Assembly (NCBI GenBank): GCA_963971285.1
Contig: OZ020249.1
Location: forward strand, 5,828,001 to 5,892,000
Origin: Astropecten irregularis
Taxonomy: Eukaryota; Echinodermata; Asteroidea; Paxillosida; Astropectinidae
Length of the DNA stretch: 64,000 bases
Direction: 5' to 3'
Positions 12,701-64,000 of this stretch are shown in pieces. A program made the position numbers and the translations under genes. Below the pieces are notes generated by a model. The model saw nothing but the letters and a program-made list of their open reading frames with translations, searched no databases and was not told where the DNA came from. Each line of letters opens with the position of its first letter. Position 1 is the first letter of the stretch.

Positions 12701-13500
12701 CATAGCTAGCTATGAGGAAGGTAGCGCGCATTTCTGAAAAAAGTCGGTTTGGGGCCAAAATTGAAAAAAGCTGCTGTGGGGGACCACATGGATTTTTCTG
12801 AAATTTGACTGACTACCAAAATGGCCTCAAATTACACCAAAATCCTTCCATGACAAGTTGATTGGCATTTTTCTTGCTGGGAATGGTTCCTGGTAGTCAT
12901 AGCTAGCTATGAGGAAGGTAGCGCGCATTTCTGAAAAAAGTCGGTTTGGGGCCAAAATTGAAAAAAGCTGCTGTTGGGGAACACATGGATTTTCCTGAAA
13001 TTTGACTGACTACCAAAATGGCCTCAAATTACACAAAAATCCTTCAATGACAAGTTGATTGGCATTTTTCTTGCTGGCAATGGTTGCTGGTAGTCATAGC
13101 TAGCTATGAGGAAGGTAGCGCGCATTTCTGAAAAAAGTCGGTTTGGGGCCAAAATTGAAAAAAGCTGCTGTGGGGGACCACATGGATTTTTCTGAAATTT
13201 GACTGACTACCAAAATGGCCTCAAATTACACCAAAATCCTTCCATGACAAGTTGATTGGCATTTTTCTTGCTGGGAATGGTTCCTGGTAGTCATAGCTAG
13301 CTTTGAGGAAGGTAGCGCGCATTTCTGAAAAAAGTCGGTTTGGGGCCAAAATTGAAAAGAACTGCTGTGGGGGACCACATGATTTTTCTTAAATTTCACT
13401 GACTAACAAAATGGCCTCAAATTACACAAAAATCCATGCATGACAATTTGATTGGCATTTTTCAAGCTCGAAATGGTTCCTAGTAGTCAGACATTCACAT

Positions 13501-13805
13501 GTCTATCTCCCTCTAGTGATCATGATGAGTCAGGTATTGCCACTCAATTTATAACCCCCGTTTCAGACAGGTGTCCCAGCATTGCCATTGAACTCAATAG
13601 ATCAGGAGCGACTTTAGGTCGACCCAATTCAGATTTTGGTTTCAGATAGGCAAACTTATGACACTGGAGAACAAGTAGGCCTACAAACAAACGGACATAG
13701 CAACCAATCTGATGTCAGATTAGATCTTTTGTATTACAAGAAGGAGACAGACACTCACTTGAGTGGCAATACCTGACTCATCATGATCACTAGAGGGAGA
13801 CAGAC
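13501..13805. repeat. Inverted-repeat sub-element inside M1
   Basis: Arms 13501-13547 and 13759-13805 are reverse complements over 47 bp with one mismatch in this copy (GTCTATCTCC versus GTCTGTCTCC), enclosing 211 bp. The layout fits a MITE of about 305 bp at the core of the module. The same pair is present at the left side of the other modules. Confidence 0.75.
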
Positions 13806-13878
13806 ACTGTCTAAGGCATCCCCATTAGCAACCGCTGTACAATCATACATGCAGATGTTGATATGGAAACATCCTTAC

Positions 13879-14062
13879 CTGCAGCTGGTTCAGATTGACG
13901 TTCCCTCATGTAACACAGATGGCAAATCCTTTAACGAATGGATGATCATATCAAGCTTGTCAGCAACTAGCGCCCTCTCCAGTTCATAGGTGAACAGGCT
14001 GGTTATCCTGTTATTTGAAGGTAGCTGAACCTGAATCGTGTCAACGTTTTTGTCCATTGTAA
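13879..14062 (-). pseudogene. HMBS exon fragment, copy 1 (in M1)
   Basis: Read on the minus strand, a 184-bp exon is bounded by an acceptor TTTATTTGACAG and a donor CTGCAG/GTAAGG. Its frame starts ACA-ATG-GAC and reads MDKNVDT, then SLFTYELERAL, then MIIHSLKDLPSVLHEGTSI, then TGA. Hydroxymethylbilane synthase (third step of heme synthesis, cytosolic) has the equivalent DKILDT, SLFTKELEHAL and HSLKDLPTVL; the Asp of HSLKDLP is its catalytic, cofactor-binding residue and is kept. About four extra codons lie between the DT and SLFT blocks. The TGA stands where the family has Gly before A/T-I-C-K, so a GGA-to-TGA change is likely. This copy alone has AATAACAGG where the others have AATATCAGG. No other HMBS exon was seen in the module. 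It is a captured gene piece, not a functional gene. Confidence 0.88.
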
Positions 14063-14342
14063 CTGTCAAATAAAGAAAGAGGAAAATGAATGAAACAGAA
14101 AGGAATTGTAGATTCTCAATGCAGAAGGCCCATTAAAGGACTGGATGGGTCAGATGGTATAGCACAGGTACGGCATACCTTGTCCGCCGCACAGGAGCAT
14201 ATCAACAGTAAGGGTTTGCATCTATGTTGGTGAAATGATTATGAAAATGCTTATATAAGAAAATACAATAATTAACCATGTTAACACGTCTTCTATTTTC
14301 AAGAGTGGGGAGTCTATAAAGTGCACATAAATAAATGAGATG

Positions 14343-14521
14343 AAAGATCACTAGAGAAAGACGGACATTCACTTGAGTGGCAATACCTGACTCATGATGA
14401 TTACTAGAAGGAGACAGACACTCACTTGAGTGGCAATACCTGACTCATGATGATTACTAGAAGGAGACAGACACTCACTTGGTTGCCATAGACAATGTCT
14501 GTCTCCCTCTAGTGATCATCA
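14343..14521. repeat. 53-bp terminal units of module M1
   Basis: ACTTGAGTGGCAATACC starts at 14371 and 14424, and ACTTGGTTGCC at 14477, giving a 53-bp period. Each unit ends in an inverted copy of the module's left terminal motif. The last 30 bases return to forward orientation (TGTCTGTCTCCCTCTAG). Module M8 has more copies (from 56035), so unit number varies. Confidence 0.75.
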
Positions 14522-14748
14522 TGACTAACAAAATGGCCTCAAATTACACAAAAATCCTTGCATGACAACTTGATTGGCATTTTTCTTGCTGGGAATGGTT
14601 CCTGGTAGTCATAGCTAGCTATGAGGAAGGTAGCGCGCATTTCTGAAAAAAGGCGTTTTGGGACCAAAATTGAAAAAAGCTGCTGTGGGGGACCCACATG
14701 TATTTTTCTGAAATTTGACTGACTACCAAAATGGCCTCAAATTACACC
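14522..14748 (+). repeat. S1 satellite fragment after M1
   Basis: A single monomer plus part of the next, ending abruptly in CAAATTACACCC. This is the right edge of the first S1 domain. Confidence 0.9.
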
Positions 14749-14749
14749 C

Positions 14750-16305: not shown

Positions 16306-16317
16306 CTACTAGGCTGT

Positions 16318-19300: not shown

Positions 19301-19350
19301 TACACAAGGCTTCATACATCTTGTAGTGCAGCAACCATGCACAGCTAATG
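16318..19350 (+). repeat. 87-bp tandem array (S2), forward block
   Basis: About 36 units. A unit contains GCAGCAACCATGCACAACTA, ATGCCAACTTGACAACCAAC, TCTCCTCCAAGGGACAACC and ATACACAAGGCTTCATACG. The first three units are 73 bp and lack the 14-bp TTGACAACCAACTC part; later ones are 87 bp (for example 16871 to 16958). Markers such as AAGTACAGGGCTTC (about 17370 and 17722, with a close variant near 18510) and CCAATGGGACAACC show higher-order blocks of four and nine units. Because 87 is divisible by 3 and the unit lacks stops in several frames, long ORFs of 29-residue repeats appear on both strands; these are artefacts of periodicity. Confidence 0.95.
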
Positions 19351-32384: not shown

Positions 32385-32443
32385 ATAACCACAAGGGAAA
32401 CTGACTGAGTTTTAAGTCATTGAAAAGTGAACAAAGAAAAATT

Positions 32444-32752: not shown

Positions 32753-32774
32753 GATTTTTCTTTGTTCACTTTTC

Positions 32775-42850: not shown

Positions 42851-43690
42851 GACATTCACACGTCTGTCTCCCTCTAGTGATCATGATGAGTCAGGTATTG
42901 CCACTCAATTTATAACCCCCGTTTCAGACAGGCGTTCCTAGCATTGCCATTGAACTCAATAGATCAGGAGCGACTTTAGGTCGACCCAATTCAGATTTTG
43001 GTTTCAGATAGGCAAACTTATGACACTGGAGAACAAGTAGGCCTACAAGCAAACGGACATAGCAACCAATCTGATGTCAGATTAGATCTTTTGTATTACA
43101 AGAAGGAGACAGACACTCACTTGAGTGGCAATACCTGACTCATCATGATCAGTAGAGGGAGACAGACACTGTCTACGGCATCCCCATTAGCAACCGCTGT
43201 ACAATCATACATGCAGATGTTGATATGGAAACATCCTTACCTGCAGCTGGTTCAGATTGACGTTCCCTCATGTAACACAGATGGCAAATCCTTTAACGAA
43301 TGGATGATCATATCAAGCTTGTCAGCAACTAGCGCCCTCTCCAGTTCATAGGTGAACAGGCCGGTTATCCTGATATTTAAAGGTAGCTGAACCTGAATCG
43401 TGTCAACGTTTTTGTCCATTGTAACTGTCAAATAAAGAAAGAGGAAAATGAATGAAATAGAAAGGAATTGTAGATTCTCAATGCAGAAGGCCCATTAAAG
43501 GACTGGATGGGTCAGATGGTATAGCACAGGTACGGCATACCTTGTCCGCCGCACAGGAACATATCAACAGTAAGGGTTTGCATCTATGTTGGTGAAATGA
43601 TTATGAAAATGCTTATATAAGAAAATACAATAATTAACCATGTTAACACGTCTTCTATTTTCAAGAGTGGGGAATCTATAAAGTGCACAT
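42851..43690. mobile_element. Composite foldback module M3 (3' truncated)
   Basis: Identical layout up to CTATAAAGTGCACAT, then S1 resumes at TGGCATTTTTC. The 53-bp units and right terminus (about 190 bp) are absent, which points to a recombination or repair event between module and satellite. Confidence 0.8.
43241..43424 (-). pseudogene. HMBS exon fragment, copy 3 (in M3)
   Basis: Same 184-bp exon, splice signals and TGA. Shares GGCCGGTTATCC and ATTTAAAGG variants with copies 4 and 5. Confidence 0.87.
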
Positions 43691-44328: not shown

Positions 44329-45361
44329 GACATTCACACGTCTGTCTCCCTCTAGTGATCATGATGAGTCAGGTATTGCCACTCAATTTATAACCCCCGT
44401 TTCAGACAGGCGTTCCTAGCATTGCCATTGAACTCAATAGATCAGGAGCGACTTTAGGTCGACCCAATTCAGATTTTGGTTTCAGATAGGCAAACTTATG
44501 ACACTGGAGAACAAGTAGGCCTACAAGCAAACGGACATAGCAACCAATCTGATGTCAGATTAGATCTTTTGTATTACAAGAAGGAGACAGACACTCACTT
44601 GAGTGGCAATACCTGACTCATCATGATCAGTAGAGGGAGACAGACACTGTCTACGGCATCCCCATTAGCAACCGCTGTACAATCATACATGCAGATGTTG
44701 ATATGGAAACATCCTTACCTGCAGCTGGTTCAGATTGACGTTCCCTCATGTAACACAGATGGCAAATCCTTTAACGAATGGATGATCATATCAAGCTTGT
44801 CAGCAACTAGCGCCCTCTCCAGTTCATAGGTGAACAGGCCGGTTATCCTGATATTTAAAGGTAGCTGAACCTGAATCGTGTCAACGTTTTTGTCCATTGT
44901 AACTGTCAAATAAAGAAAGAGGAAAATGAATGAAATAGAAAGGAATTGTAGATTCTCAATGCAGAAGGCCCATTAAAGGACTGGATGGGTCAGATGGTAT
45001 AGCACAGGTACGGCATACCTTGTCCGCCGCACAGGAACATATCAACAGTAAGGGTTTGCATCTATGTTGGTGAAATGATTATGAAAATGCTTATATAAGA
45101 AAATACAATAATTAACCATGTTGACACGTCTTCTATTTTCAAGAGTGGGGAATCTATAAAGTGCACATAAATAAATGAGATGAAAGATCACTAGAGAAAG
45201 ACGGACATTCACTTGAGTGGCAATACCTGACTCATGATGATTACTAGAAGGAGAGAGACACTCACTTGCCTGGCAATACCTGACTCATGATGATTACTAG
45301 AAGGAGACAGACACTCGCTTGGTTGCGATAGACAATGTCTGTCTCCCTCTAGTGATCATCA
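44329..45361. mobile_element. Composite foldback module M4
   Basis: Complete module; nearly identical to M3 where both exist. GTTGCGATAGACAATG replaces GTTGCCATAG at the right end, a variant shared with M5. Empty hAT site. Confidence 0.8.
44719..44902 (-). pseudogene. HMBS exon fragment, copy 4 (in M4)
   Basis: Same exon, splice signals and TGA; type A with the GGCCGG variant. Confidence 0.87.
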
Positions 45362-48300
45362 TGACTAACAAAATGGCCTCAAATTACACCAAAATCCTTG
45401 CATGACAAGTTGATTGGCATTTTTCTTGCTGGGAATGGTTCCTAGTAGTCATAGCTACCTATGAGGAAGATAGCGCGCATTTCTGAAAAAGTTACTTTTG
45501 GGCAAAAATTGAAAAAAACTGCTGTGGGGGACCACATGGATTTTTCTGAAATTTTACTGACTACCAAAATGGCCTCAAATTACACCAAAATCTTTCCATG
45601 ACAAGTTGATTGGCATTTTTCTTGCTGGGAATGGTTCCTGGTAGTCATAGCTACCTATGAGGAAGATAGCGCGCATTTCTGAAAAAAGTTACTTTTGGGC
45701 AAAAATTGAAAAAAAAACTGCTGTGCGGGACCACATGATTTTTCTTAAATTTCACTGACTACCAAAATGGCCTCAAATTACACCAAAATCCTTCCATGAC
45801 AAGTTGATAGGCATTTTTCTTGCTGGGAATGGTTCCTGGTAGTCATAGCTAGCTATGAGGAAGGTAGCGCGCATTTCTCAAAAAAGTCGGTTTGGGGCCA
45901 AAATTGAAAAAAGCTGCTGTGGGGGACCACATGGATTTTTCTGAAATTTAACTGACTAACAAAATGGCCTCAAATTACACAAAAATCCTTGCATGACAAT
46001 TTGATTGGCATTGTTCAAGCTCGAAATGGTTCCTGGTAGTCATAGCTACCTATGAGGAACATAGCACGCATTTCTGAAAAAAGTTACTTTTGGGCAAAAA
46101 TTGAAAAAAAACTGCTGTGCGGGACCACATGATTTTTCTTAAATTTCACTGACTACCAAAATGGCCTCAAATTACACCAAAATCCTTCCATGACAAGTTG
46201 ATTGGCATTTTTCTAGCTGGGAATGGTTCCTGGTAGTCATAGCTAGCTATGAGGAAGGTAGCGCGCATTTCTGAAAAAAGTCGGTTTGGGGCCAAAATAG
46301 AAAAAAGCTGCTGTGGGGGACCACATGATTTTTCTTAAATTTCACTGACTAACAAAATGGCCTTAAATTACACAAAAATCCTTGCATGACAATTTGATTG
46401 GCATTTTTCAAGCTCGAAATGGTTCCTGGTAGTCATAGCTACCTATGAGGAAGATAGCGCGCATTTCTGAAAAAAGTTACTTTTGGGCAAAAATTGAAAA
46501 AAACTGCTGTGGGGGACCACGTGGATTTTTCTGAAATTTGACTGACTACCAAAATGGCCTCAAATTACACCAAAATCTCTCCATGACAAGTTGATTGGCA
46601 TTTTTCTTGCTGGGAATGGTTCCTGGTAGTCATAGCTAGCTATGAGGAAGGTTGCGCGTATTTCTGAAAAAAGTCGGTTTGGGGCCAAAATTGAAAAAAG
46701 CTGCTGTGGGGGACCACATGGATTTTTCTGAAATTTGACTGACTAACAAAATGGCCTTAAATTACACAAAAATCCTTGCATGACAATTTGATTGGCATTT
46801 TTCTTGCTGGGAATGGTTCCTGGTAGTCATAGCTACCTATGAGGAAGATAGCGCGCATTTCTGAAAAAAGTTACTTTTGGGCAAAAATTGAAAAAAACTG
46901 CTGTGGGGGACCACATGGATTTTTCTTAAATTTCACTGACTAACAAAATGGCCTCAAATTACACCAAAATCCTTCCATGACAAGTTGATAGGCATTTTTC
47001 TTGCTGGGAATGGTTCCTGGAAGTCATAGCTAGCTATGAGGAAGGTAGCGCGCATTTCTCAAAAAAGTCGGTTTTGGACCAAAATTGAAAAAAGCTGCTG
47101 TGGGGGACCACGTGGATTTTTCTGAAATTTGACTGACTACCAAAATGGCCTCAAATTACACCAAAATCTCTCCATGACAAGTTGATTGGCATTTTTCTTG
47201 CTGGGAATGGTTCCTGGTAGTCATAGCTAGCTATGAGGAAGGTTGCGCGTATTTCTGAAAAAAGTCGGTTTGGGGCCAAAATTGAAAAAAGCTGCTGTGG
47301 GGGACCACATGGATTTTTCTGAAATTTGACTGACTACCAAAATGGCCTCAAATTACACCAAAATCCTTGCATGACAAGTTGATTGGCATTTTTCTTGCTG
47401 GGAATGGTTCCTAGTAGTCATAGCTACCTATGAGGAAGATAGCGCGCATTTCTGAAAAAGTTACTTTTGGGCAAAAATTGAAAAAAACTGCTGTGGGGGA
47501 CCACATGGATTTTTCTGAAATTTTACTGACTACCAAAATGGCCTCAAATTACACCAAAATCTTTCCATGACAAGTTGATTGGCATTTTTCTTGCTGGGAA
47601 TGGTTCCTGGTAGTCATAGCTACCTATGAGGAAGATAGCGCGCATTTCTGAAAAAAGTTACTTTTGGGCAAAAATTGAAAAAAAAACTGCTGTGCGGGAC
47701 CACATGATTTTTCTTAAATTTCACTGACTACCAAAATGGCCTCAAATTACACCAAAATCCTTCCATGACAAGTTGATAGGCATTTTTCTTGCTGGGAATG
47801 GTTCCTGGTAGTCATAGCTAGCTATGAGGAAGGTAGCGCGCATTTCTCAAAAAAGTCGGTTTGGGGCCAAAATTGAAAAAAGCTGCTGTGGGGGACCACA
47901 TGGATTTTTCTGAAATTTAACTGACTAACAAAATGGCCTCAAATTACACAAAAATCCTTGCATGACAATTTGATTGGCATTGTTCAAGCTCGAAATGGTT
48001 CCTGGTAGTCATAGCTACCTATGAGGAACATAGCACGCATTTCTGAAAAAAGTTACTTTTGGGCAAAAATTGAAAAAAAACTGCTGTGCGGGACCACATG
48101 ATTTTTCTTAAATTTCACTGACTACCAAAATGGCCTCAAATTACACCAAAATCCTTCCATGACAAGTTGATTGGCATTTTTCTAGCTGGGAATGGTTCCT
48201 GGTAGTCATAGCTAGCTATGAGGAAGGTAGCGCGCATTTCTGAAAAAAGTCGGTTTGGGGCCAAAATAGAAAAAAGCTGCTGTGGGGGACCACATGATTT

Positions 48301-48994: not shown

Positions 48995-50027
48995 GACATT
49001 CACACGTCTGTCTCCCTCTAGTGATCATGATGAGTCAGGTATTGCCACTCAATTTATAACCCCCGTTTCAGACAGGCGTTCCTAGCATTGCCATTGAACT
49101 CAATAGATCAGGAGCGACTTTAGGTCGACCCAATTCAGATTTTGGTTTCAGATAGGCAAACTTATGACACTGGAGAACAAGTAGGCCTACAAGCAAACGG
49201 ACATAGCAACCAATCTGATGTCAGATTAGATCTTTTGTATTACAAGAAGGAGACAGACACTCACTTGAGTGGCAATACCTGACTCATCATGATCAGTAGA
49301 GGGAGACAGACACTGTCTACGGCATCCCCATTAGCAACCGCTGTACAATCATACATGCAGATGTTGATATGGAAACATCCTTACCTGCAGCTGGTTCAGA
49401 TTGACGTTCCCTCATGTAACACAGATGGCAAATCCTTTAACGAATGGATGATCATATCAAGCTTGTCAGCAACTAGCGCCCTCTCCAGTTCATAGGTGAA
49501 CAAGCCGGTTATCCTGATATTTAAAGGTAGCTGAACCTGAATCGTGTCAACGTTTTTGTCCATTGTAACTGTCAAATAAAGAAAGAGGAAAATGAATGAA
49601 ATAGAAAGGAATTGTAGATTCTCAATGCAGAAGGCCCATTAAAGGACTGGATGGGTCAGATGGTATAGCACAGGTACGGCATACCTTGTCCGCCGCACAG
49701 GAGCATATCAACAGTAAGGGTTTGCATCTATGTTGGTGAAATGATTATGAAAATGCTTATATAAGAAAATACAATAATTAACCATGTTAACACGTCTTCT
49801 ATTTTCAAGAGTGGGGAATCTATAAAGTGCACATAAATAAATGAGATGAAAGATCACTAGAAAAAGATGGACATTCACTTGAGTGGCAATACCTGACTCA
49901 TGATGATTACTAGAAGGAGAGAGACACTCACTTGCCTGGCAATACCTGACTCATGATGATTACTAGAAGGAGACAGACACTCGCTTGGTTGCGATAGACA
50001 ATGTCCGTCTCCCTCTAGTGATCATCA
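48995..50027. mobile_element. Composite foldback module M5
   Basis: Complete, close to M4 (GTTGCGATAG). Empty hAT site. Confidence 0.8.
49385..49568 (-). pseudogene. HMBS exon fragment, copy 5 (in M5)
   Basis: Same exon, splice signals and TGA; AAGCCGG variant. Confidence 0.87.
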
Positions 50028-51891
50028 TGACTAACAAAATGGCCTCAAATTACACCAAAATCCTTGCATGACAAGTTGATTGGCATTTTTCTTGCTGGGA
50101 ATGGTTCCTAGTAGTCATAGCTAGCTATGAGGAAGGTAGCGCGCATTTCTGAAAAAAGTCGGTTTGGGGCCAAAATTGAAAAAGGCTGCTGTGGGGGACC
50201 ACATGGATTTTTCTGAAATTTGACTGACTACCAAAATGGCCTCAAATTACACCAAAATCTCTCCATGACAAGTTGATTGGCATTTTTCTTGCTGGGAATG
50301 GTTCCTGGTAGTCATAGCTACCTATGAGGAAGATAGCGCGCATTTCTGAAAAAAGTTACTTTTGGGCAAAAATTAAAAAAAAACTGCAGTGCGGGACCAC
50401 ATGATTTTTCTTAAATTTCATTGACTACTAAAATGGCCTAAAATTACACCAAAATCCTTGCATGACAAGTTGATTGGCATTTTTCTTGCTGGGAATGGTT
50501 CCTGGAAGTCATAGCTAGCTATGAGGAAGGTAGCGCGCATTTCTGAAAAAAGTTACTTTTGGGCAAAAATTGAAAAAAGCTGCTGAGGGGGACCACGTGG
50601 ATTTTTCTGAAATTTGACTGACTACCAAAATGGCCTCAAATTACACCAAAATCTCTCCATGACAAGTTGATTGGCATTTTTCTTGCTGGGAATGGTTCCT
50701 GGTAGTCATAGCTAGCTATGAGGAAGGTTGCGCGTATTTCTGAAAAAAGTCGGTTTGGGGCCAAAATTGAAAAAAGCTGCTGTGGGGGACCACATGGATT
50801 TTTCTGAAATTTGACTGACTACCAAAATGGCCTCAAATTACACCAAAATCCTTCCATGACAAGTTGATTGGCATTTTTCTTGCTGGGAATGGTTCCTGGT
50901 AGTCATAGCTAGCTATGAGGAAGGTAGCGCGCATTTCTGAAAAAAGTTACTTTTGGGCAAAAATTGAAAAAAGCTGCTGTGGGGGACCACATGGATTTTT
51001 CTGAAATTTTGACTGACTACCAAAATGGCCTCAAATTACACCAAAATCCTTCCATGACAAGTTGATTGGCATTTTTCTTGCTGGGAATGGTTCCTGGTAG
51101 TCATAGCTAGCTATGAGGAAGGTAGCGCGCATTTCTGAAAAAAGTCGGTTTGGGGCCAAAATTGAAAAAAGCTGCTGTGGGGGACCACATGGATTTTTCT
51201 GAAATTTGACTGACTACCAAAATGGCCTCAAATTACACCAAAATCTTTCCATGACAAGTTGATTGGCATTTTTCTTGCTGGGAATGGTTCCTGGTAGTCA
51301 TAGCTACCTATGAGGAAGATAGCGCACATTTCTGAAAAAAGTTACTTTTGGGAAAAATTGAAAAAAAAACTGCTGTGCGGGACCACATGATTTTTCTTAA
51401 ATTTCACTGACTACCAAAATGGCCTCAAATTACACCAAAATCCTTCCATGACAAGTTGATAGGCATTTTTCTTGCTGGGAATGGTTCCTGGTAGTCATAG
51501 CTAGCTATGAGGAAGGTAGCGCGCATTTCTCAAAAAAGTCGGTTTGGGGCCAAAATTGAAAAAAGCTGCTGTGGGGGACCACATGGATTTTTCTGAAATT
51601 TAACTGACTGCCAAAATGGCCTCAAATTACACCAAAATCTTTCCATGACAAGTTGATTGGCATTTTTCTTGCTGGGAATGGTTCCTGGTAGTCATAGCTA
51701 GCTATGAGGAAGGTAGCGCGCATTTCTGAAAAAAGTCGGTTTGGGGCCAAAATAGAAAAAAACTGCTGTGGGGGACCACATGGATTTTTCTTAAATTTCA
51801 CTGACTAACAAAATGGCCTCAAATTACACAAAAATCCTTCCATGACAAATTGATTGGCATTTTTCAAGCTCGAAATTGTTTCTAGTAGTCA
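50028..51891 (+). repeat. S1 satellite, block G
   Basis: About 9.5 monomers between M5 and M6. Confidence 0.95.
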
Positions 51892-52870
51892 GACATTCAC
51901 ACGTCTGTCTCCCTCTAGTGATCATGATGAGTCAGGTATTGCCACTCAATTTATAACCCCCGTTTCAGACAGGCGTTCCTAGCATTGCCATTGAACTCAA
52001 TAGATCAGGAGCGACTTTAGGTCGACCCAATTCAGATTTTGGTTTCAGATAGGCAAACTTATGACACTGGAGAACAAGTAGGCCTACAAGCAAACGGACA
52101 TAGCAACCAATCTGATGTCAGATTAGATCTTTTGTATTACAAGAAGGAGACAGACACTCACTTGAGTGGCAATACCTGACTCATCATGATCAGTAGAGGG
52201 AGACAGACACTGTCTACGGCATCCCCATTAGCAACCGCTGTACAATCATACATGCAGATGTTGATATGGAAACATCCTTACCTGCAGCTGGTTCAGATTG
52301 ACGTTCCCTCATGTAACACAGATGGCAAATCCTTTAACGAATGGATGATCATATCAAGCTTGTCAGCAACTAGCGCCCTCTCCAGTTCATAGGTGAACAG
52401 GCTGGTTATCCTGATATTTGAAGGTAGCTGAACCTGAATCATGTCAACGTTTTTGTCCATTGTAACTGTCAAATAAAGAAAGAGGAAAATGAATGAAACA
52501 AAATGGATTGTAGATTCTCAATGCAGAAGGCCCATAAAAGGACTGGATGGGTCAGATGGTATAGCACAGCTACGGCATGCGTTGTCCGCCGCACAGGAGC
52601 ATATAAACAGTAAGGGTGTGCATCTTTGTTGGTGAAATGATTATGAAAATGCTTATATAAGAAAATACAATAATTAACCATATTAATACCTCTTCTATTT
52701 TCAAGAGTGATGAGTCTATAAAGTGCACATAAATAAATGAGATGAATGATCACTTGAGAAAGACAGACACTCACTCGAGTGGCAATACCTGACTCATGAT
52801 GATTACTAGAAGGAGACAGACACTCACTTGGTTGCCATAGACAATGTCTGTCTCCCTCTAGTGATCATCA
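51892..52870. mobile_element. Composite foldback module M6 (hybrid)
   Basis: Left part matches M3-M5 (AAATTGTTTCTAG junction, CTGCAGCTGG). The right part from about 52441 matches M7-type modules (AATCATGTCAACG, AACAAAATGGATTG, CCCATAAAAGG). A switch between these types inside the HMBS exon marks a recombinant or gene-converted copy. Confidence 0.8.
52282..52465 (-). pseudogene. HMBS exon fragment, copy 6 (hybrid, in M6)
   Basis: Exon with intact splice signals and TGA. Donor-side half is type A, acceptor-side half is type B (ACATGATT, giving Met for Thr). Confidence 0.87.
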
Positions 52871-53550
52871 TGACTACCAAAATGGCCTCAAATTACACCA
52901 AAATCCTTGCATGACAAGTTGATTGGCATTTTTCTTGCTGGGAATGGTTCCTGGTAGTCATAGCTACCTAAGAGGAAGATAGCACGCTTTTCTGAAAAAA
53001 AGTTACTTTTGGGCAAAAATTGAAAAAAGCTGCTGTGGGGGACCACATGGATTTTTCTGAAATTTGACTGACTACCAAAATAGCCTCAAATTACACCAAA
53101 ATCCTTCCATGACAAGTTGATTGGCATTTTTCTTGCTGGGAATGGTTCCTGGTAGTCATAGCTAGCTATGAGGAAGGTAGCGCGCATTTCTGAAAAAAGT
53201 CGGTTTGGGGCCAAAATTGAAAAAAGCTGCTGTGGGGGACCACATGATTTTTCTTAAATTTCACTGACTACCAAAATGGCCTCAAATTACACCAAAATCC
53301 TTGCATGACAATTTGATTGGCATTTTTCAAGCTCGAAATGGTTCCTGGTAGTCATAGCTAGCTATGAGGAAGGTAGCGCGCATTTCTGAAAAAAGTCGGT
53401 TTGGGGCCAAAATTGAAAAAAACTGCTGTGGGGGACCACATGATTTTTCTTAAATTTCACTGACTAACAAAATGGCCTCAAATTACACAAAAATCTTTGC
53501 ATGACAAATTGATTGGCATTTTTCAAGCTCGAAATGGTTCCTAGTAGTCA
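52871..53550 (+). repeat. S1 satellite, block H
   Basis: About 3.5 monomers with the private variant CTACCTAAGAGGAAG, repeated in blocks K and L. Confidence 0.95.
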
Positions 53551-53785
53551 GACATTCACATGTCTGTCTCCCTCTAGTGATCATGATGAGTCAGGTATTG
53601 CCACTCAATTTATAACCCCCGTTTCAGACAGGTGTCTCAGCATTGCCATTGAACTCAATAGATCAGGAGCGACTTTAGGTCGACCCAATTCAGATTTTGG
53701 TTTCAGATAGGCAAACTTATGACACTGGAAAACAAGAAGGCCTACAAACAAACGGACATAGCAACCAATCTGATGTCAAATTAGA

Positions 53786-53968
53786 ATTTTTGGTGTCGGA
53801 AAAAAACATTATGCTGTTTCGGGTCTCGCACCCAGGACCCCTGGCTACCAGTAATGAAAACTGTCCGCTGGCTATCAGGTACAGACCTGGTGAAAACATC
53901 CACTTTTTTACCTGTGACGATAATACAAAATTTTGATATATTTCAAGCAAGTCCGATGTCAGATTAGA
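53786..53968. repeat. 183-bp insertion in M7
   Basis: Bounded by GATGTCAAATTAGA at 53772-53785 and GATGTCAGATTAGA at 53955-53968. Contains CGGGTCTCGCACCCAGG and GATATATTTCAAGCAAGTCC, the latter similar to 15159-15180. The same insertion is in M9 (56817-56999), M11 (60039-60221) and M13 (63105-63287), always 183 bp. Confidence 0.8.
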
Positions 53969-54153
53969 TCTTTTGTATAGATCAGTGGGCAATACCTGAC
54001 TCACGATGATTACTAGAAGGAGACAGACACTCACTTGAGTGGCAATACCTGACTCATCATGATCAGTAGAGGGAGACAGACACTGTCTACGGCATCCCCA
54101 TTAGCAACCGCTGTAAATCATACATGCAGATGTTGATATGGAAACATCCTTAC

Positions 54154-54337
54154 CTGCAGATGGTTCAGATTGACGTTCCCTCATGTAACACAGATGGCAA
54201 ATCCTTTAATGAATGGATGATCATATCAAGCTTGTCAGCAACTAGCGCCCTCTCCAGTTCATAGGTGAACAGGCTGGTTATCCTGATATTTGAAGGTAGC
54301 TGAACCTGAATCATGTCAACGTTTTTGTCCATTGTAA
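54154..54337 (-). pseudogene. HMBS exon fragment, copy 7 (in M7)
   Basis: Same exon, splice signals and TGA; type B (CTGCAGATGG, ACATGATT). Confidence 0.87.
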
Positions 54338-54705
54338 CTGTCAAATAAAGAAAGAGGAAAATGAATGAAACAAAATGGATTGTAGATTCTCAATGCAGAA
54401 GGCCCATAAAAGGACTGGATGGGTCAGATGGTATAGCACAGCTACGGCATGCCTTGTCCGCCGCACAGGAGCATATAAACAGTAAGGGTTTGCATCTATG
54501 TTGGTGAAATGATTATGAAAATGCTTATATAAGAAAATACAATAATTAACCATATTAATACCTCTTCTATTTTCAAGAGTGATGAGTCTATAAAGTGCAC
54601 ATAAATAAATGAGATGAATGATCACTTGAGAAAGACAGACACTCACTCGAGTGGCAATACCTGACTCACGATGATTACTAGAAGGAGACAGACACTCACT
54701 TGGTT

Positions 54706-55144
54706 CAGAGCTGTAAATAAAGAGAGTTTGGCCAACTGCGCCATGTTTGGGACCTACAGTGGATGCGCGTACACACGCGCGCGCGGGCGCGCAAACTATT
54801 TTAGCAATGGTTGTTTGTCTAATAAACCCCTCAAAAATGTTCTGCAACTCAACTGGTTTGAGGGATTATATCTTTTTTGTTACGAATCTATGAACGGTGA
54901 AACTGACATCATTGGAAAGCTTCGTTATTCCTCTTTACAATGGTGTGCCATTTGTTGTGATCATGAAACCATGGAATGTGCATTTCTCCTAAATATAGGG
55001 CAAAGACAAATGTGAAATATTGCAATTGATTGACTCAAAGTTGGTAGCTAACATGGCGCCTTGTAGTCACGTGAGGGCTATTGACCAATTATAAATGAGA
55101 TGCCTGAAACCGAGTTGGCCAAACTCTCTTTATTGACGGCTCTG
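54706..55144. mobile_element. hAT MITE, copy 1 (439 bp)
   Basis: Inverted ends of about 32 bp start CAGAGCTGTAAATAAAGAGA and end CTCTTTATTGACGGCTCTG. The 8-bp ACTTGGTT flanks both sides (54698-54705 and 55145-55152), and modules without it have ACTTGGTT once. CAGAG ends and an 8-bp duplication fit the hAT superfamily. An alternating GCGC/ACAC tract lies at 54764-54792. The 114-residue ORF inside has no transposase features. Confidence 0.9.
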
Positions 55145-55163
55145 ACTTGGTTGCCATAGACAA

Positions 55164-56295
55164 TGTCTGTCTTCCTCTAGTGATCATGATGAGTCAGGTA
55201 TTGCCACTCAATTTATAACCCCCGTTTCAGACAGGTGTCCCAGCATTGCCATTGAACTCAATAGATCAGGAGCGACTTTAGGTCGACCCAATTCAGATTT
55301 TGGTTTCAGATAGGCAAACTTATGACACCGGAGAACAAGTAGGCCTACAAACAAACGAACATAGCAACCAATCTGATGTCAGATTAGATCTTTTGTATTT
55401 CAAGAAGGAGACAGACACTCACTTGAGTGGCAATACCTGACTCATCATGGTCACTAGAGGGAGACAGACACTGTCTACGGCATCCCCATTAGGAACCGCT
55501 GTACAATCATACATGCAGATGTTGATATGGAAACATCCTTACCTGCAGCTGGTTCAGATTGACGTTCCCTCATGTAACACAGATGGCAAATCCTTTAACG
55601 AATGGATGATCATATCAAGCTTGTCAGCAACTAGCGCCCTCTCCAGTTCATAGGTGAACAGGCTGGTTATCCTGATATTTGAAGGTAGCTGAACCTGAAT
55701 CGTGTCAACGTTTTTGTCCATTGTAACTGTCAAATAAAGAAAGAGGAAAATAAATGAAACAGAAAGGAATTGTAGATTCTCAATGCAGAAGGCCCATTAA
55801 AGGACTGGATGGGTCAGATGGTATAGCACAGGTACGGCATACCTTGTCTGCCGCACAGGAGCATATCAACAGTAAGGGTTTGCATCTATGTTGGTGAAAT
55901 GATTATGAAAATGCTTATATAAGAAAATACAATAATTAACCATGTTAACACGTCTTCTATTTTCAAGAGTGGGGAGTCTATAAAGTGCACATAAATAAAT
56001 GAGATGAAACATCACTAGAGAAAGACGGACATTCACTTGAGTGGCAATACCTGACTCATGATGATTACTAGAAGGAGACAGACACTCACTTGAGTGGCAA
56101 TACCTGACTCATGATGATTACTAGAAGGAGACAGACACTCACTTGAGTGGCAATACCTGACTCATGATGATTACTAGAAGGAGACAGACACTCACTTGAG
56201 TGGCAATACCTGACTCATGATGATTACTAGAAGGAGACAGACACTCGATCACTTGGATGCCATAGACAATGTCTGTCTCCCTCTAGTGATCATCA
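55164..56295. mobile_element. Module M8 (right member of pair)
   Basis: No 183-bp insert and no hAT. Five 53-bp units start at 56035, 56088, 56141, 56194 and near 56247, the most of any copy seen. Confidence 0.8.
55543..55726 (-). pseudogene. HMBS exon fragment, copy 8 (in M8)
   Basis: Same exon, splice signals and TGA; type A. Confidence 0.87.
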
Positions 56296-56581
56296 TGACT
56301 AACAAAATGGCCTCAAATTACACCAAAATCCTTGCATGACAAGTTGATTGGCATTTTTCTTGCTGGGAATGGTTCCTGGTAGTCATAGCTAGCTATGAGG
56401 AAGGTAGCGCGCATTTCTGTAAAAAGTTACTTTTCGGCAAAAATTGAAAAAAACTGCTGTGGGGGACCACATGATTTTTCTTAAATTTCACTGACTAACA
56501 AAATGGCCTCAAATTACACAAAAATCCTTGCATGACAAATTGATTGGCATTTTTCAAGCTCGAAATGGTTCCTAGTAGTCA
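56296..56581 (+). repeat. S1 satellite, block I
   Basis: Only about 1.5 monomers remain between module pairs. Confidence 0.95.
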
Positions 56582-57184
56582 GACATTCACATGTCTGTCT
56601 CCCTCTAGTGATCATGATGAGTCAGGTATTGCCACTCAATTTATAACCCCCGTTTCAGACAGGTGTCCCAGCTTTGCCATTGAACTCAATAGATCAGGAG
56701 CGACTTTAGGTCAACCCAATTCAGATTTTGGTTTCAGATAGGCAAACTTATGACACTGGAAAACAAGTAGGCCTACAAACAAACGGACATAGCAACCAAT
56801 CTGATGTCAGATTAGAATTTTTGGTGTCGGAAAAAAACATTATGCTGTTTCGGGTCTCGCACCCAGGACCCCTGGCTACCAGTGTTTAAAACTGTCCGCT
56901 GGCTATCAGGTCCAGACCTGGTGAAAACATCCACTTTTTTACCTGTGATGATAATGCAAAATGTTGATATATTTCAAGCAAGTCCGATGTCAGATTAGAT
57001 CTTTTGTATAGATCAGTGGGCAATACCTGACTCAAGATGATTACTAGAAGGAGACAGACACTCACTTGAGTGGCAATACCTGACTCATCATGATCACTAG
57101 AGGGAGACAGACACTGTCTACGGCAACCCCATTAGCAACCGCTGTAAATCATACATGCAGATGTTGATATGGAAACATCCTTAC

Positions 57185-57368
57185 CTGCAGATGGTTCAGA
57201 TTGACGTTCCCTCATGTAACACAGATGGCAAATCCTTTAATGAATGGATGATCATATCAAGCTTGTCAGCAACTAGCGCCCTCTCCAGTTCATAGGTGAA
57301 CAGGCTGGTTATCCTGATATTTGAAGGTAGCTGAACCTGAATCATGTCAACGTTTTTGTCCATTGTAA
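57185..57368 (-). pseudogene. HMBS exon fragment, copy 9 (in M9)
   Basis: Same exon, splice signals and TGA; type B. Confidence 0.87.
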
Positions 57369-57895
57369 CTGTCAAATAAAGAAAGAGGAAAATGAATGAA
57401 ACAACATGGATTGTAGATTCTCAATGCAGAAGGCCCATAAAAGGACTGGATGGGTCAGATGGTATAGCACAGCTACGGCATGCCTTGTCCGCCGCACAGG
57501 AGCATATAAACAGTAAGGGTTTGCATCTATGTTGGTGAAATGATTATGAAAATGCTTATATAAGAAAATACAATAATTATCCATATTAATACCTCTTCTA
57601 TTTTCAAGAGTGGGGAGTCTATAAAGTGCACATAAATGAATGAGATGAATGATCACTAGAGAAAGACGGACATTCACTTGGGTGGCAATACCTGACTCAT
57701 GATGATTACTAGAAGGAGACAGACACTCACTCGAGTGGCAATACCTGACTCACGATGATTACTAGAAGGAGACAGACACTCACTCGAGTGGCAATACCTG
57801 ACTCACGATGATTACTAGAAGGAGACAGACACTCACTTGAGTGGCAATACTTGACTCATGATGATCACTAGAGGGAGACAGACACTCACTTGGTT

Positions 57896-58331
57896 CAGAG
57901 CCGTAAATAAAGAGAGTTTGGCCAACTGCGCCATGTTGGGGACCTACAGTGGATGCGCGTACACACGCGCGCGCGGGCGCGCAAACTATTTTAGCAATGG
58001 TTGTTTGTCTAATAAACCCCTCAAAAAAGTTCTGCCACTCAAGTTTGAGGGATTATATCTTTTTTGTTACGGATCTATGAACGGTGAAACTGACATCATT
58101 GGAAAGCTTCGTTATTCCTCTTTACAATGGTGTGCCATTTGTTGTGATCATGAAACCATGGAATGTGCATTTCTCCTAAATATAGGGCAAAGACAAATGT
58201 GAAATATTGCAATTGATTGACTCAAAGTTGGTAGCTAACATCGCGCCTTGTAGTCACGTGAGGGCTATTGACCAATCATAAATGAGATGCCTGAAACCGA
58301 GTTGGCCAAACTCTCTTTATTTACGGCTCTG
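57896..58331. mobile_element. hAT MITE, copy 2 (436 bp)
   Basis: Ends are perfect inverted repeats here, starting CAGAGCCGTAAATAAAGAGA. ACTTGGTT lies at 57888-57895 and 58332-58339. A 3-bp difference from copies 1 and 3 lies near 58040. Confidence 0.9.
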
Positions 58332-58350
58332 ACTTGGTTGCCATAGACAA

Positions 58351-59319
58351 TGTCTGTCTTCCTCTAGTGATCATGATGAGTCAGGTTTTGCCACTCAATT
58401 TATAACCCCCGTTTCAGACAGGCGTCCCAGCATTGCCATTGAACTCAATAGATCAGGAGCGACTTTAGGTCGACCCAATTCAGATTTTGGTTTCAGATAG
58501 GCAAACTTATGACACTGGAGAACAAGTAGGCCTACAAGCAAACGGACATAGCAACCAATCTGATGTCAGATTAGATCTTTTGTATTACAAGAAGGAGACA
58601 GACACTCACTTGAGTGGCAATACCTGACTCATCATGATCAGTAGAGGGAGACAGACACTGTCTACGGCATCCCCATTAGCAACCGCTGTACAATCATACA
58701 TGCAGATGTTGATATGGAAACATCCTTACCTGCAGCTGGTTCAGATTGACGTTCCCTCATGTAACACAGATGGCAAATCCTTTAACGAATGGATGATCAT
58801 ATCAAGCTTGTCAGCAACTAGCGCCCTCTCTAGTTCATAGGTGAACAGGCTGGTTATCCTGATATTTGAAGGTAGCTGAACCTGAATCGTGTCAACGTTT
58901 TTGTCCATTGTAGCTGTCAAATAAAGAAAGAGGAAAATGAATGAAACAGAAAGGAATTGTAGATTCTCAATGCAGAAGGCCCATTAAAGGACTGGATGGG
59001 TCAGATGGTATAGCACAGCTACGGCATACCTTGTCAGCCGCACAGGAGCATATCAACAGTAAGGGTTTGCATCTATGTTGGTGAAATGATTATGAAAATG
59101 CTTATATAAGAAAATACAATAATTAACCATGTTAACACGTCTTCTATTTTCAAGAGTGGGGAGTCTATAAAGTGCACATAAATAAATGAGATGAAAGATC
59201 ACTAGAGAAAGACGGACATTCACTTGAGTGGCAATACCTGACTCATGATGATTACTAGAAGGAGACAGACACTCACTTGGTTGCCATAGACAATGTCTGT
59301 CTCCCTCTAGTGATCATCA
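58351..59319. mobile_element. Module M10 (right member of pair)
   Basis: Complete, without insertions; shares CTTGTCAGCCGCAC and TTGTAGCTGTC variants with M12. Confidence 0.8.
58730..58913 (-). pseudogene. HMBS exon fragment, copy 10 (in M10)
   Basis: Same exon and TGA; type A. The first exon base is C instead of T (acceptor TTTGACAG/CTACAATGG). Confidence 0.87.
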
Positions 59320-59803
59320 TGACTACCAAGATGGCCTCAAATTACACCAAAATCCTTCCATGACAAGTTGATTGGCATTTTTCTTGCTGGGAATGGTTCC
59401 TGGTAGTCATAGCTACCTAAGAGGAAGATAGCACGCTTTTCTGAAAAAAAGGTACTTTTGGGCAAAAATTGAAAAAAGCTGCTGTGGGGGACCACATGGA
59501 TTTTTCTGAAATTTGACTGACTACCAAAATAGCCTCAAATTACACCAAAATCCTTCCATGACAAGTTGATTGGCATTTTTCAAGCTCGAAATGGTTCCTG
59601 GTAGTCATAGCTAGCTATGAGGAAGGTAGCGCGCATTTCTGAAAAAAGTCGGTTTGGGGCCAAAATTGAAAAAAACTGCTGTGGGGGACCACATGATTTT
59701 TCTTAAATTTCACTGACTAACAAAATGGCCTCAAATTACACAAAAATCCTTGCATGACAAATTGATTGGCATTTTTCAAGCTCGAAATGGTTCCTAGTAG
59801 TCA
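59320..59803 (+). repeat. S1 satellite, block K
   Basis: Two and a half monomers with CTACCTAAGAGGAAG and AAAAAAAGGTACTTTTGGG, nearly identical to block L. Confidence 0.95.
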
Positions 59804-60406
59804 GACATTCACATGTCTGTCTCCCTCTAGTGATCATGATGAGTCAGGTATTGCCACTCAATTTATAACCCCCGTTTCAGACAGGTGTCTCAGCATTGCC
59901 ATTTAACTCAATAGATCAGGAGCGACTTTAGGTCGACCCAATTTAGATTTTGGTTTCAGATAGGCAAACTTATGACACTGGAAAACAAGTAGGCCTACAA
60001 ACAAACGGACATAGCAACCAATCTGATGTCAGATTAGAATTTTTGGTGTCGGAAAAAAACATTATGCTGTTTCGGGTCTCGCACCCAGGACCCCTGGCTA
60101 CCAGTAATGAAAACTGTCCGCTGGCTATCAGGTACAGACCTGGTGAAAACATCCACTTTTTTACCTGTGACGATAATACAAAATTTTGATATATTTCAAG
60201 CAAGTCCGATGTCAGATTAGATCTTTTGTATAGATCAGTGGGCAATACCTGACTCACGATGATTACTAGAAGGAGACAGACACTCACTTGAGTGGCAATA
60301 CCTGACTCATCATGATCAGTAGAGGGAGACAGACACTGTCTACGGCATCCCCATTAGCAACCGCTGTAAATCATACATGCAGATGTTGATATGGAAACAT
60401 CCTTAC

Positions 60407-60590
60407 CTGCAGATGGTTCAGATTGACGTTCCCTCATGTAACACAGATGGCAAATCCTTTAATGAATGGATGATCATATCAAGCTTGTCAGCAACTAGCG
60501 CCCTCTCCAGTTCATAGGTGAACAGGCTGGTTATCCTGATATTTGAAGGTAGCTGAACCTGAATCATGTCAACGTTTTTGTCCATTGTAA
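60407..60590 (-). pseudogene. HMBS exon fragment, copy 11 (in M11)
   Basis: Same exon, splice signals and TGA; type B. Confidence 0.87.
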
Positions 60591-60958
60591 CTGTCAAATA
60601 AAGAAAGAGGAAAATGAATGAAACAAAATGGATTGTAGATTCTCAATGCAGAAGGCCCATAAAAGGACTGTATGGGTCAGATGGTATAGCACAGCTACGG
60701 CATGCCTTGTCCGCCGCACAGGAGCATATAAACAGTAAGGGTTTGCATCTATGTTGGTGAAATGATTATGAAAATGCTTATATAAGAAAATACAATAATT
60801 AACCATATTAATACCTCTTCTATTTTCAAGAGTGATGAGTCTATAAAGTGCACATAAATAAATGAGATGAATGATCACTTGAGAAAGACAGACACTCACT
60901 CGAGTGGCAATACCTGACTCACGATGATTACTAGAAGGAGACAGACACTCACTTGGTT

Positions 60959-61397
60959 CAGAGCCGTAAATAAAGAGAGTTTGGCCAACTGCGCCATGTT
61001 TGGGACCTACAGTGGATGCGCGTACACACGCGCGCGCGGGCGCGCAAACTATTTTAGCAATGGTTGTTTGTCTAATAAACCCCTCAAAAAAGTTCTGCAA
61101 CTCAACTGGTTTGAGGGATTATATCTTTTTTGTTACGAATCTATGAACGGTGAAACTGACATCATTGGAAAGCTTCGTTATTCCTCTTTACAATGGTGTG
61201 CCATTTGTTGTGATCATGAAACCATGGAATGTGCATTTCTCCTAAATATAGGGCAAAGACAAATGTGAAATATTGCAATTGATTGACTCAAAGTTGGTAG
61301 CTAACATGGCGCCTTGTAGTCACGTGAGGGCTATTGACCAATTATAAATGAGATGCCTGAAACCGAGTTGGCCAAACTCTCTTTATTGACGGCTCTG
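60959..61397. mobile_element. hAT MITE, copy 3 (439 bp)
   Basis: Same ends, same 8-bp ACTTGGTT (60951-60958 and 61398-61405) and same position in the module as copies 1 and 2, so it was copied with the module rather than inserted anew. Confidence 0.9.
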
Positions 61398-61416
61398 ACT
61401 TGGTTGCCATAGACAA

Positions 61417-62385
61417 TGTCTGTCTTCCTCTAGTGATCATGATGAGTCAGGTATTGCCACTCAATTTATAACCCCCGTTTCAGACAGGTGTCCCAGCATT
61501 GCCATTGAACTCAATAGATCAGGAGCGACTTTAGGTCGACCCAATTCAGATTTTGGTTTCAGATAGGCAAACTTATGACACCGGAGAACAAGTAGGCCTA
61601 CAAACAAACGAACATAGCAACCAATCTGATGTCAGATTAGATCTTTTGTATTTCAAGAAGGAGACAGACACTCACTTGAGTGGCAATACCTGACTCATCA
61701 TGATCAGTAGAGGGAGACAGACACTGTCTACGGCATCCCCATTAGCAACCGCTGTACAATCAAACATGCAGATGTTGATATGGAAACATCCTTACCTGCA
61801 GCTGGTTCAGATTGACGTTCCCTCATGTAACACAGATGGCAAATCCTTTAACGAATGGATGATCATATCAAGCTTGTCAGCAACTAGCGCCCTCTCTAGT
61901 TCATAGGTGAACAGGCTGGTTATCCTGATATTTGAAGGTAGCTGAACCTGAATCGTGTCAACGTTTTTGTCCATTGTAGCTGTCAAATAAAGAAAGAGGA
62001 AAATGAATGAAACAGAAAGGAATTGTAGATTCTCAATGCAGAAGGCCCATTAAAGGACTGGATGGGTCAGATGGTATAGCACAGCTACGGCATACCTTGT
62101 CAGCCGCACAGGAGCATATCAACAGTAAGGGTTTGCATCTATGTTGGTGAAATGATTATGAAAATGCTTATATAAGAAAATACAATAATTAACCATGTTA
62201 ACACGTCTTCTATTTTCAAGAGTGGGGAGTCTATAAAGTGCACATAAATAAATGAGATGAAAGATCACTAGAGAAAGACGGACATTCACTTGAGTGGCAA
62301 TACCTGACTCATGATGATTACTAGAAGGAGACAGACACTCACTTGGTTGCCATAGACAATGTCTGTCTCCCTCTAGTGATCATCA
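61417..62385. mobile_element. Module M12 (right member of pair)
   Basis: Complete; carries CACCGGAGAAC and GTATTTCAAG variants shared with M8, plus the M10-type right half. Confidence 0.8.
61796..61979 (-). pseudogene. HMBS exon fragment, copy 12 (in M12)
   Basis: Same exon and TGA; type A with the CTACAATGG start seen in copy 10. Confidence 0.87.
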
Positions 62386-62869
62386 TGACTACCAAAATGG
62401 CCTCAAATTACACCAAAATCCTTCCATGACAAGTTGATTGGCATTTTTCTTGCTGGGAATGGTTCCTGGTAGTCATAGCTACCTAAGAGGAAGATAGCAC
62501 GCTTTTCTGAAAAAAAGGTACTTTTGGGCAAAAATTGAAAAAAGCTGCTGTGGGGGACCACATGGATTTTTCTGAAATTTGACTGACTACCAAAATAGCA
62601 TCAAATTACACCAAAATCCTTCCATGACAAGTTGATTGGCATTTTTCAAGCTCGAAATGGTTCCTGGTAGTCATAGCTAGCTATGAGGAAGGTAGCGCGC
62701 ATTTCTGAAAAAAGTCGGTTTGGGGCCAAAATTGAAAAAAACTGCTGTGGGGGACCACATGATTTTTCTTAAATTTCACTGACTAACAAAATGGCCTCAA
62801 ATTACACAAAAATCCTTGCATGACAAATTGATTGGCATTTTTCAAGCTCGAAATGGTTCCTAGTAGTCA
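62386..62869 (+). repeat. S1 satellite, block L
   Basis: Repeat of block K with one or two differences (ATAGCATCAAATT). Confidence 0.95.
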
Positions 62870-64000
62870 GACATTCACATGTCTGTCTCCCTCTAGTGAT
62901 CATGATGAGTCAGGTATTGCCACTCAATTTATAACCCCCGTTTCAGACAGGTGTCTCAGCATTGCCATTTAACTCAATAGATCAGGAGCGACTTTAGGTC
63001 GACCCAATTTAGATTTTGGTTTCAGATAGGCAAACTTATGACACTGGAAAACAAGTAGGCCTACAAACAAACGGACATAGCAACCAATCTGATGTCAGAT
63101 TAGAATTTTTGGTGTCGGAAAAAAACATTATGCTGTTTCGGGTCTCGCACCCAGGACCCCTGGCTACCAGTAATGAAAACTGTCCGCTGGCTATCAGGTA
63201 CAGACCTGGTGAAAACATCCACTTTTTTACCTGTGACGATAATACAAAATTTTGATATATTTCAAGCAAGTCCGATGTCAGATTAGATCTTTTGTATAGA
63301 TCAGTGGGCAATACCTGACTCACGATGATTACTAGAAGGAGACAGACACTCACTTGAGTGGCAATACCTGACTCATCATGATCAGTAGAGGGAGACAGAC
63401 ACTGTCTACGGCATCCCCATTAGCAACCGCTGTAAATCATACATGCAGATGTTGATATGGAAACATCCTTACCTGCAGATGGTTCAGATTGACGTTCCCT
63501 CATGTAACACAGATGGCAAATCCTTTAATGAATGGATGATCATATCAAGCTTGTCAGCAACTAGCGCCCTCTCCAGTTCATAGGTGAACAGGCTGGTTAT
63601 CCTGATATTTGAAGGTAGCTGAACCTGAATCATGTCAACGTTTTTGTCCATTGTAACTGTCAAATAAAGAAAGAGGAAAATGAATGAAACAAAATGGATT
63701 GTAGATTCTCAATGCAGAAGGCCCATAAAAGGACTGTATGGGTCAGATGGTATAGCACAGCTACGGCATGCCTTGTCCGCCGCACAGGAGCATATAAACA
63801 GTAAGGGTTTGCATCTATGTTGGTGAAATGATTATGAAAATGCTTATATAAGAAAATACAATAATTAACCATATTAATACCTCTTCTATTTTCAAGAGTG
63901 ATGAGTCTATAAAGTGCACATAAATAAATGAGATGAATGATCACTTGAGAAAGACAGACACTCACTCGAGTGGCAATACCTGACTCACGATGATTACTAG
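62870..64000. mobile_element. Module M13 (cut by window end)
   Basis: 183-bp insertion at 63105-63287; the sequence stops inside the 53-bp units, just before where the hAT site would be. Confidence 0.8.
63473..63656 (-). pseudogene. HMBS exon fragment, copy 13 (in M13)
   Basis: Same exon, splice signals and TGA; type B. Confidence 0.87.

Follow-up and report, generated by a model that had tools for sequence, protein, structure and literature searches.

A 64,000-nucleotide stretch of the sea star Astropecten irregularis genome (the window; C12:5828001-5892000, contig OZ020249.1 of assembly GCA_963971285.1, which has 475.7 Mb in 168 contigs) contains 13 modules, interleaved with a ~197-bp satellite (MONO), that each carry one exon of the gene for hydroxymethylbilane synthase (HMBS). 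We conclude that these modules probably belong to a gene-derived satellite, in which the HMBS exon, its intron flanks and a minisatellite (r53) were copied out of the gene, amplified in tandem arrays and later combined with the 197-bp satellite. The initial annotation of the window had proposed genomic copying of an HMBS exon with intron flanks and its multiplication in a satellite, and this part agrees with the match that we found at exon and introns on C25. Its proposal of capture by a foldback module is weighed below. In the following, C-numbers denote contigs and L-numbers denote loci.

HMBS exon copies and their parent gene

The exon copy of module 1 lies exactly at 13879-14062 (minus strand), is 184 bp long, and has TTTGACAG directly before it and GTAAGG directly after it. 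All 13 window modules contain this antisense 184-bp exon between the same two signals, as the annotation had stated of every module. Each of the 13 copies encodes LFTYELERAL and HSLKDLPSVL, and each has an in-frame TGA. Of the two peptides named in the annotation, HSLKDLPSVL is found throughout, and SLFTYELERAL in 10 of the 13 copies (the other three read GLFTYELERAL). The parent exon on C25 (1427273-1427456) likewise has 184 bp. The core of module 1 (13814-14118) aligns with the C25 HMBS gene as intron, exon and intron (235/308 identities, 76% over 308 bp, E 1e-60), and the homology runs beyond the splice sites for 63 bp on the donor side and 56 bp on the acceptor side, which bears out the flanking intron bases and both splice signals described earlier. 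The parent gene thus matches the module in exon and both introns instead of being unrelated there, and the translated exon finds its enzyme: by phmmer, the parent exon peptide matches porphobilinogen deaminase chains in PDB (best 3eq1, presumably the human enzyme, E 2e-15), and the Pfam profile PF01379 recovers exon copies in the genome (~5e-12 to 7e-8 among the matches listed). HMBS is almost certainly the source gene of the exon copies.

Three probes for neighbouring HMBS exons match only the C25 gene (in the window and L001-L028), save for weak upstream-exon matches in the HemC-like contig C139 and one chance match of 9 aa, so that a single exon appears to have been copied. Since intron sequence is kept on both sides of the exon, the copy was made from genomic DNA. 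A processed (retro)pseudogene, which requires that introns have been removed, does not fit.

For coding state and relationships, we aligned 58 rows from exon matches of at least ~231 bp (L003-L008 and L029-L031 fall outside), and 54 rows, i.e. those other than the C25, C1, C18 and C10 rows, were used for counts. Variable exon sites are distributed over the codon positions as 10/10/14, and 51 of the 54 aligned copies have at least one stop in the exon. Given these stops and the even variation, we read the exon arrays as non-coding.

The modules have the order r53(-), spacer B, r53(+), donor-side intron, exon, acceptor-side intron, D segment, r53(+) array and r53(-) stub. A long hairpin stem pairs 13497-13547 with 13759-13810 and encloses spacer B only; the exon stands outside the hairpin, flanked by direct r53 copies. 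The annotated range (13490..64000) does hold the 13 modules, and it also includes an island of ~24 kb (14754-38522) that is free of them. The features of the window, among them three miniature inverted-repeat transposable elements (MITEs), are as follows.

1..13489 (+), 197-bp satellite (MONO) array, 68 copies
13490..14525 (+), module 1, in the order given above
13497..13547 (-), r53 copy on the left, inverted (foldback arm), its stem partner is 13759-13810 and does not lie across the exon
13759..13810 (+), inner r53 copy, between spacer B and the donor-side intron of the exon
13816..13878 (-), donor-side HMBS intron remnant, GTAAGG retained
13879..14062 (-), HMBS exon copy, 184 bp, one in-frame TGA
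14063..14118 (-), acceptor-side HMBS intron remnant, TTTGACAG retained
14119..14345 (+), D segment, first ~57 bp related to 107-bp repeats upstream of the C10 exon copy (these look tRNA-like)
14346..14490 (+), r53 array at the right of module 1, in the same orientation as the inner r53 copy
40296..41384 (+), module 2, exon 40685-40868 (-)
42851..43690 (+), module 3, D cut short and joined to MONO, exon 43241-43424 (-)
44329..45365 (+), module 4, exon 44719-44902 (-)
48995..50031 (+), module 5, exon 49385-49568 (-)
51892..52874 (+), module 6, exon 52282-52465 (-)
53551..54705 (+), module 7, type 2 with ~217 bp more of spacer, exon 54154-54337 (-)
54706..55144 (no strand), MITE where two modules meet, inverted ends CAGAGCYGT..., flanked by the 8-bp repeat ACTTGGTT; more copies at 57896-58331 and 60959-61397
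55145..56299 (+), module 8, exon 55543-55726 (-)
56582..57895 (+), module 9, type 2, exon 57185-57368 (-)
58332..59323 (+), module 10, exon 58730-58913 (-)
59804..60958 (+), module 11, type 2, exon 60407-60590 (-)
61398..62389 (+), module 12, exon 61796-61979 (-), right end set by the start of the next MONO match
62870..64000 (+), module 13, type 2, cut by the window end, exon 63473-63656 (-)
57808..64000 (+), higher-order repeat, two 3063-bp periods, 99.1% alike (type-2 module, MITE, type-1 module, MONO)

Copy number, r53 and relationships among copies

The genome-wide copy count that the annotation had suggested gave 206+212=418 sites for a 25-base exon probe (at most 3 mismatches) and 202+207=409 sites for a second one, which lies in a different stretch of the exon, with no site for either control. 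A MONO 27-mer has 1698+740=2438 exact sites. With periods of the higher-order repeat 99.1% alike, the arrays are high-copy, tandem and homogenised, as satellites are. Among the matches listed (the first 100 sites in each listing), exon-probe places are on C1, C9, C10 and C12; a PF01379 profile search of the assembly contigs (best 150 of 412 candidates scored) adds C15, C18, C19 and the C25 gene itself. Large exon arrays are found at C9 11.8-12.8 Mb and C12 3.9-6.3 Mb, and both would fit a (peri)centromeric location. Arrays of exon and r53 stand separately at C10:0.12-0.14 Mb (12 sites of the second probe at C10:126955-136664, among the matches listed) and C9:0-40 kb, and C15, C12 and C19 have modules in single or few copies. 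On C18, the last 200 bases (L013) read as a telomere-like end with TTAGGG and TTATGG units mixed.

The HMBS gene has an r53 array of its own: ~19 units in an intron (L010 667-1696), between the exon at C25:1428557-1428631 and the PF01379 match at C25:1429876, so the 'arms' of the module may themselves be gene-derived. A 48-mer of the gene-type r53 (at most 3 mismatches) matches 24 places in the genome, of which 18 belong to the HMBS intron and 6 to the C9-end array, and a 37-mer of the module-type r53 has 790+1080=1870 sites (controls: 0 in both cases). In a BLAST search of r53 against the genome (best 40 of 111 candidates scored, 424 matches), places among the matches listed are C25-HMBS, the C9 end, C10:0.13-2.97 Mb, C1 and C18. 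Those on C10 are at about 0.13, 0.60, 0.83, 2.42, 2.57 and 2.96 Mb, and 5 of the 6 have an exon-probe site within ~7 kb. The idea that r53 is exclusive to HMBS and the modules was weakened by these C10 arrays, one of which is exon-free in the stretch fetched; r53 is tied to HMBS-derived copies, not exclusive to them. The r53 consensus differs from the gene r53 at 5 of 53 positions at the C9 end, 6 on C1/C18 and 9-10 in the central arrays. At five C9-end loci, 191/193 BLAST hits of r53 fall on the plus strand (L014 71/73, L015 65/65, L006 23/23, L007 20/20, L008 12/12; hits overlap, as do L006 and L008 with L015), and all 13 r53 hits of the C19 copy have one orientation. We note that exon-probe sites stand on both sides of r53 matches at C10:0.599-0.615, 0.821-0.840, 2.416-2.434 and 2.569-2.581 Mb, 12-18 kb apart, as if a larger unit had been duplicated.

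Trees were built from 58 and 44 of the 400-odd copies, the smaller set being additionally without 9 of the 13 window rows and the L019 and L027 rows. The midpoint root falls beside the C25 gene in both. All sampled copies of central C9, C12, C15 and C19 form one clade (support 100/98 in the 58-copy tree and 100/99 in the 44-copy tree), which is nested among the C9-end copies; the latter make up a paraphyletic grade and are nearest to the root among the modules. The C10:0.12 Mb array is a separate clade (5 copies fetched, 99/99 in the 44-copy tree), and C1/C18 group with the C10:2.4165 Mb copy (95/79; 94/68). C10:2.4165 Mb and C1/C18 have in common a small palindromic insert in the donor-side intron, which is absent from the module and C25. 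The join between donor-side intron and r53 is common to C10:2.4165 Mb, C1/C18 and the modules, and hence probably predates these copies. At C10:2.4285 Mb, r53 and a C9-type spacer (84% alike) extend as far as the splice acceptor, and the exon behind it is broken. The copies at C12 6.10 and 6.33 Mb and those at three sites on C15 have kilobases of flanking sequence in common and hence look like segmental copies. Beside the C10:2.4165 Mb exon copy, a piece (L017 ~5430-5700) reads like a reverse-transcriptase fragment of a non-LTR element.

Joins with the 197-bp satellite and the origin of the modules

A census of one join form counted 26 MONO-to-module joins (on C12 and C15), 19 module-to-MONO joins (on C12) and 11 uninterrupted module-module joins (in 5 sources). 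About 28 bp of r53 are present on both sides of the MONO array, i.e. the duplication surrounds MONO and not the module. From this and the uninterrupted module-module joins, it is the MONO array that looks like the insert. The annotation had the module nested in the 197-bp satellite, which is not what the few repeated join forms, the uninterrupted joins and the lack of target-site duplications (TSDs; inspected at the 13 window modules and, by eye, at the C19 copy) indicate. The three window MITEs, which we take to be hAT-like from their inverted ends and 8-bp flanking repeat, sit at module-module joins. In addition, window 56591-62354 and C12:4113887-4119652 are inverted copies of each other (99.4% over 5.8 kb), 1.76 Mb apart.

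According to our preferred reading, an HMBS-derived stretch (one 184-bp exon, short intron flanks and the r53 minisatellite) would have been copied to other sites and multiplied there in tandem. The direct r53 repeats flanking the exon could serve as substrate for unequal exchange or re-inserting circles, engines that the anatomy of the module suggests. Exon joined to r53 would have given rise to the separate tandem arrays at C10:0.12-0.14 Mb and C9:0-40 kb. The expansion in central C9 and C12 would be that of a clade that branches from within the C9-end copies. On C12, the 197-bp satellite array would have been joined at a module-module junction, in a form also seen on C15, and the composite of module and 197-bp satellite would have multiplied in the form of higher-order repeats that include the window. 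We propose more tentatively that the intronic minisatellite was itself the engine, having repeatedly lifted the neighbouring exon out of an essential gene and founded the arrays on C10, at the C9 end and in central C9/C12, thus placing an exon in probable centromere-proximal DNA.

Several observations weigh against a gene-derived satellite of this kind. Of the r53 arrays measured, the exon-free one at C10:2.96 Mb (5 kb fetched) is the longest, and the HMBS intron may thus have acquired r53 from an older satellite. In the gene, 1.2 kb and two exons separate the exon from r53, in the copies ~75 bp, which means that internal deletions or another source copy must be assumed. Within 20 kb around the HMBS gene, the best match of spacer B has E 0.06. 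Joins of other forms exist (D is cut at base 210 at window 43690 and in L019, and at ~base 70 on C9 in L025), so more than one fusion happened. Support for the grouping of C10:2.4165 Mb with C1/C18 and for several inner forks is weak, the bootstrap of the 58-copy tree had not settled, and the order of events is polarised within one assembly alone.

An explanation along the lines of the annotation, in which a foldback-type DNA transposon captured the HMBS exon and spread it by transposition, with satellite amplification coming later, seems improbable to us. The module does have an inverted r53 arm at its start and forms a long hairpin, and there are single or few-copy modules at C15, C12 and C19. 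However, foldback elements have terminal inverted repeats that enclose their cargo, and here the stem encloses the spacer only and the exon lies between direct r53 copies. The inverted arm is nearly absent from the C9-end copies (2/193 r53 hits in the minority orientation) and absent from the C19 copy (0/13), and the copies at the three C15 sites and C12 6.10/6.33 Mb have the segmental look described above. TSDs at independent sites were seen neither at the window module ends nor at the C19 copy; what recurs is a few join forms, and the r53 duplication of ~28 bp surrounds MONO. Other mobile elements known to capture gene pieces do not fit the copies inspected either. Pack-MULEs carry terminal inverted repeats and a TSD of 9-11 bp around the captured piece, and the window copies have no inverted repeat around the exon and no TSD. 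Helitrons start with TC and end in CTRR with a subterminal hairpin, and the module borders read GACATTCAC... and ...CATCATGAC, a mismatch that holds if module borders are element borders.

The remaining alternatives concern what was copied and why it was kept. If r53 is an older satellite (with arrays at C10:0-3 Mb) that inserted in the HMBS intron, recombination with outside r53 arrays could have carried the exon out as a passenger, with the same amplification steps as in our preferred reading. The r53 arrays at six C10 places (0.13-2.96 Mb), the last exon-free as far as fetched, speak for this; the restriction of r53 to C25-HMBS, the C9 end, C10, C1 and C18 and the exon-probe sites near five of the six C10 places, both among the matches listed, speak against it, and we regard it as a real possibility that falls short of being probable. 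The copies could also go back to an old duplicate of the whole HMBS gene. This pseudogene, perhaps on C10, would have lost all but one exon by the time the arrays formed, and no active copying would be needed at the start. The C10:2.4165 Mb copy is stop-free across the exon and adjoins repeats that are related to part of the parent intron, but no further HMBS exon was found within ~5 kb on either side of it (L017), and we consider such a history unlikely. That the exon was kept for a function, by exon trapping or as a small RNA acting on HMBS, is hardly credible. AG and GT are retained in 54/54 aligned copies and the exon has 184 bp in 50/54, but 147 of 303 columns are invariant, so that four random columns would all be invariant with P ~0.055 and splice-site retention is not beyond chance. 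Besides the stops in nearly all copies, the longest run of bases identical to the parent is 15 for the consensus and 23 for the best single copy.

Related systems, neighbouring repeats and other contigs

To our knowledge, documented origins of new satellites start mostly from transposons. The D4Z4 macrosatellite and Drosophila Stellate/Su(Ste) are likewise tandem arrays built on gene-derived sequence, and their units keep an open reading frame (ORF) and some function; here, in contrast, the unit has a single internal exon that retains intron flanks and in most cases contains a stop, and it is present at more than 400 sites on several chromosomes. Helentrons of the Pacific oyster reportedly carry satellite-like arrays (PMC7492417), which also link tandem repeats to dispersed copies in a marine invertebrate, whereas our modules include a gene exon and lack Helitron-type ends at their borders.

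The TIR-220 satellite of Drosophila virilis grew from the terminal inverted repeat (TIR) repeats of the mobile element Tetris, which has TSDs of 8-10 bp, according to PMC4079207. As here, satellite arrays grew from tandem repeats of an element with inverted repeats; unlike there, the amplified core is exon and intron of a housekeeping gene, and the copies inspected have neither a TSD nor arms that span the exon. Intermingled satellites with macro-dyad symmetry in Tribolium madens (PMC13081366, main text) resemble the window in that two satellites are interleaved with recurring transition points, to which the inverted near-identical C12 segments may be compared; these are 1.76 Mb apart and we claim no adjacency, and 'exon' and 'gene fragment' do not occur in the main text of that paper. 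Neither term occurs in the main text of the review PMC12628747, and the open-licence literature searched contained no satellite made from an HMBS exon.

How new satellites begin is an open question, and here a single assembly contains the gene of origin, copies at an intermediate stage (C10, C1/C18, C9 end) and the derived arrays, which makes the steps from gene to satellite readable and testable. If an intronic minisatellite was indeed the engine, exons beside minisatellites would be a general source of new satellites. We also caution that the 400-odd pseudo-exons with splice signals may draw false HMBS gene models in annotation.

Coding genes were not apparent in the island of the window (14.75-38.5 kb), where the ORF lists have only repeat artefacts and short frames (no protein-family search was made). 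The island contains two 87-bp minisatellite arrays (16316-19351 and 25979-27574; inverted orientation, ~90% alike) and two divergent tRNA matches, 32443-32515 (-) and 32681-32753 (+). A 21-bp array (AAGGCAATGACCAGGGGCACC) at 34194-37914 is found together with MONO and module, and sequence that matches it is found again next to C15 and C12 modules (L021, L024, L026, L029, L030), which suggests larger segmental copies.

Among the other contigs, C139 has an unspliced HemC-like frame (41086-41886; 417 aa) and C131 a COX1 frame without stops (32162-33484); both contigs look bacterial and may derive from a contaminant or symbiont. A COX1 match with 7 TGA on a large contig (C25:9951047-9952018) is probably a nuclear copy of mitochondrial DNA. 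The COX1 frame of C168, which requires TGA=W and AGA=S, is best translated with the echinoderm mitochondrial code; it has AAA at sites that we take to be N in other animals, and the tRNA genes before it presumably follow an order resembling that of sea stars.

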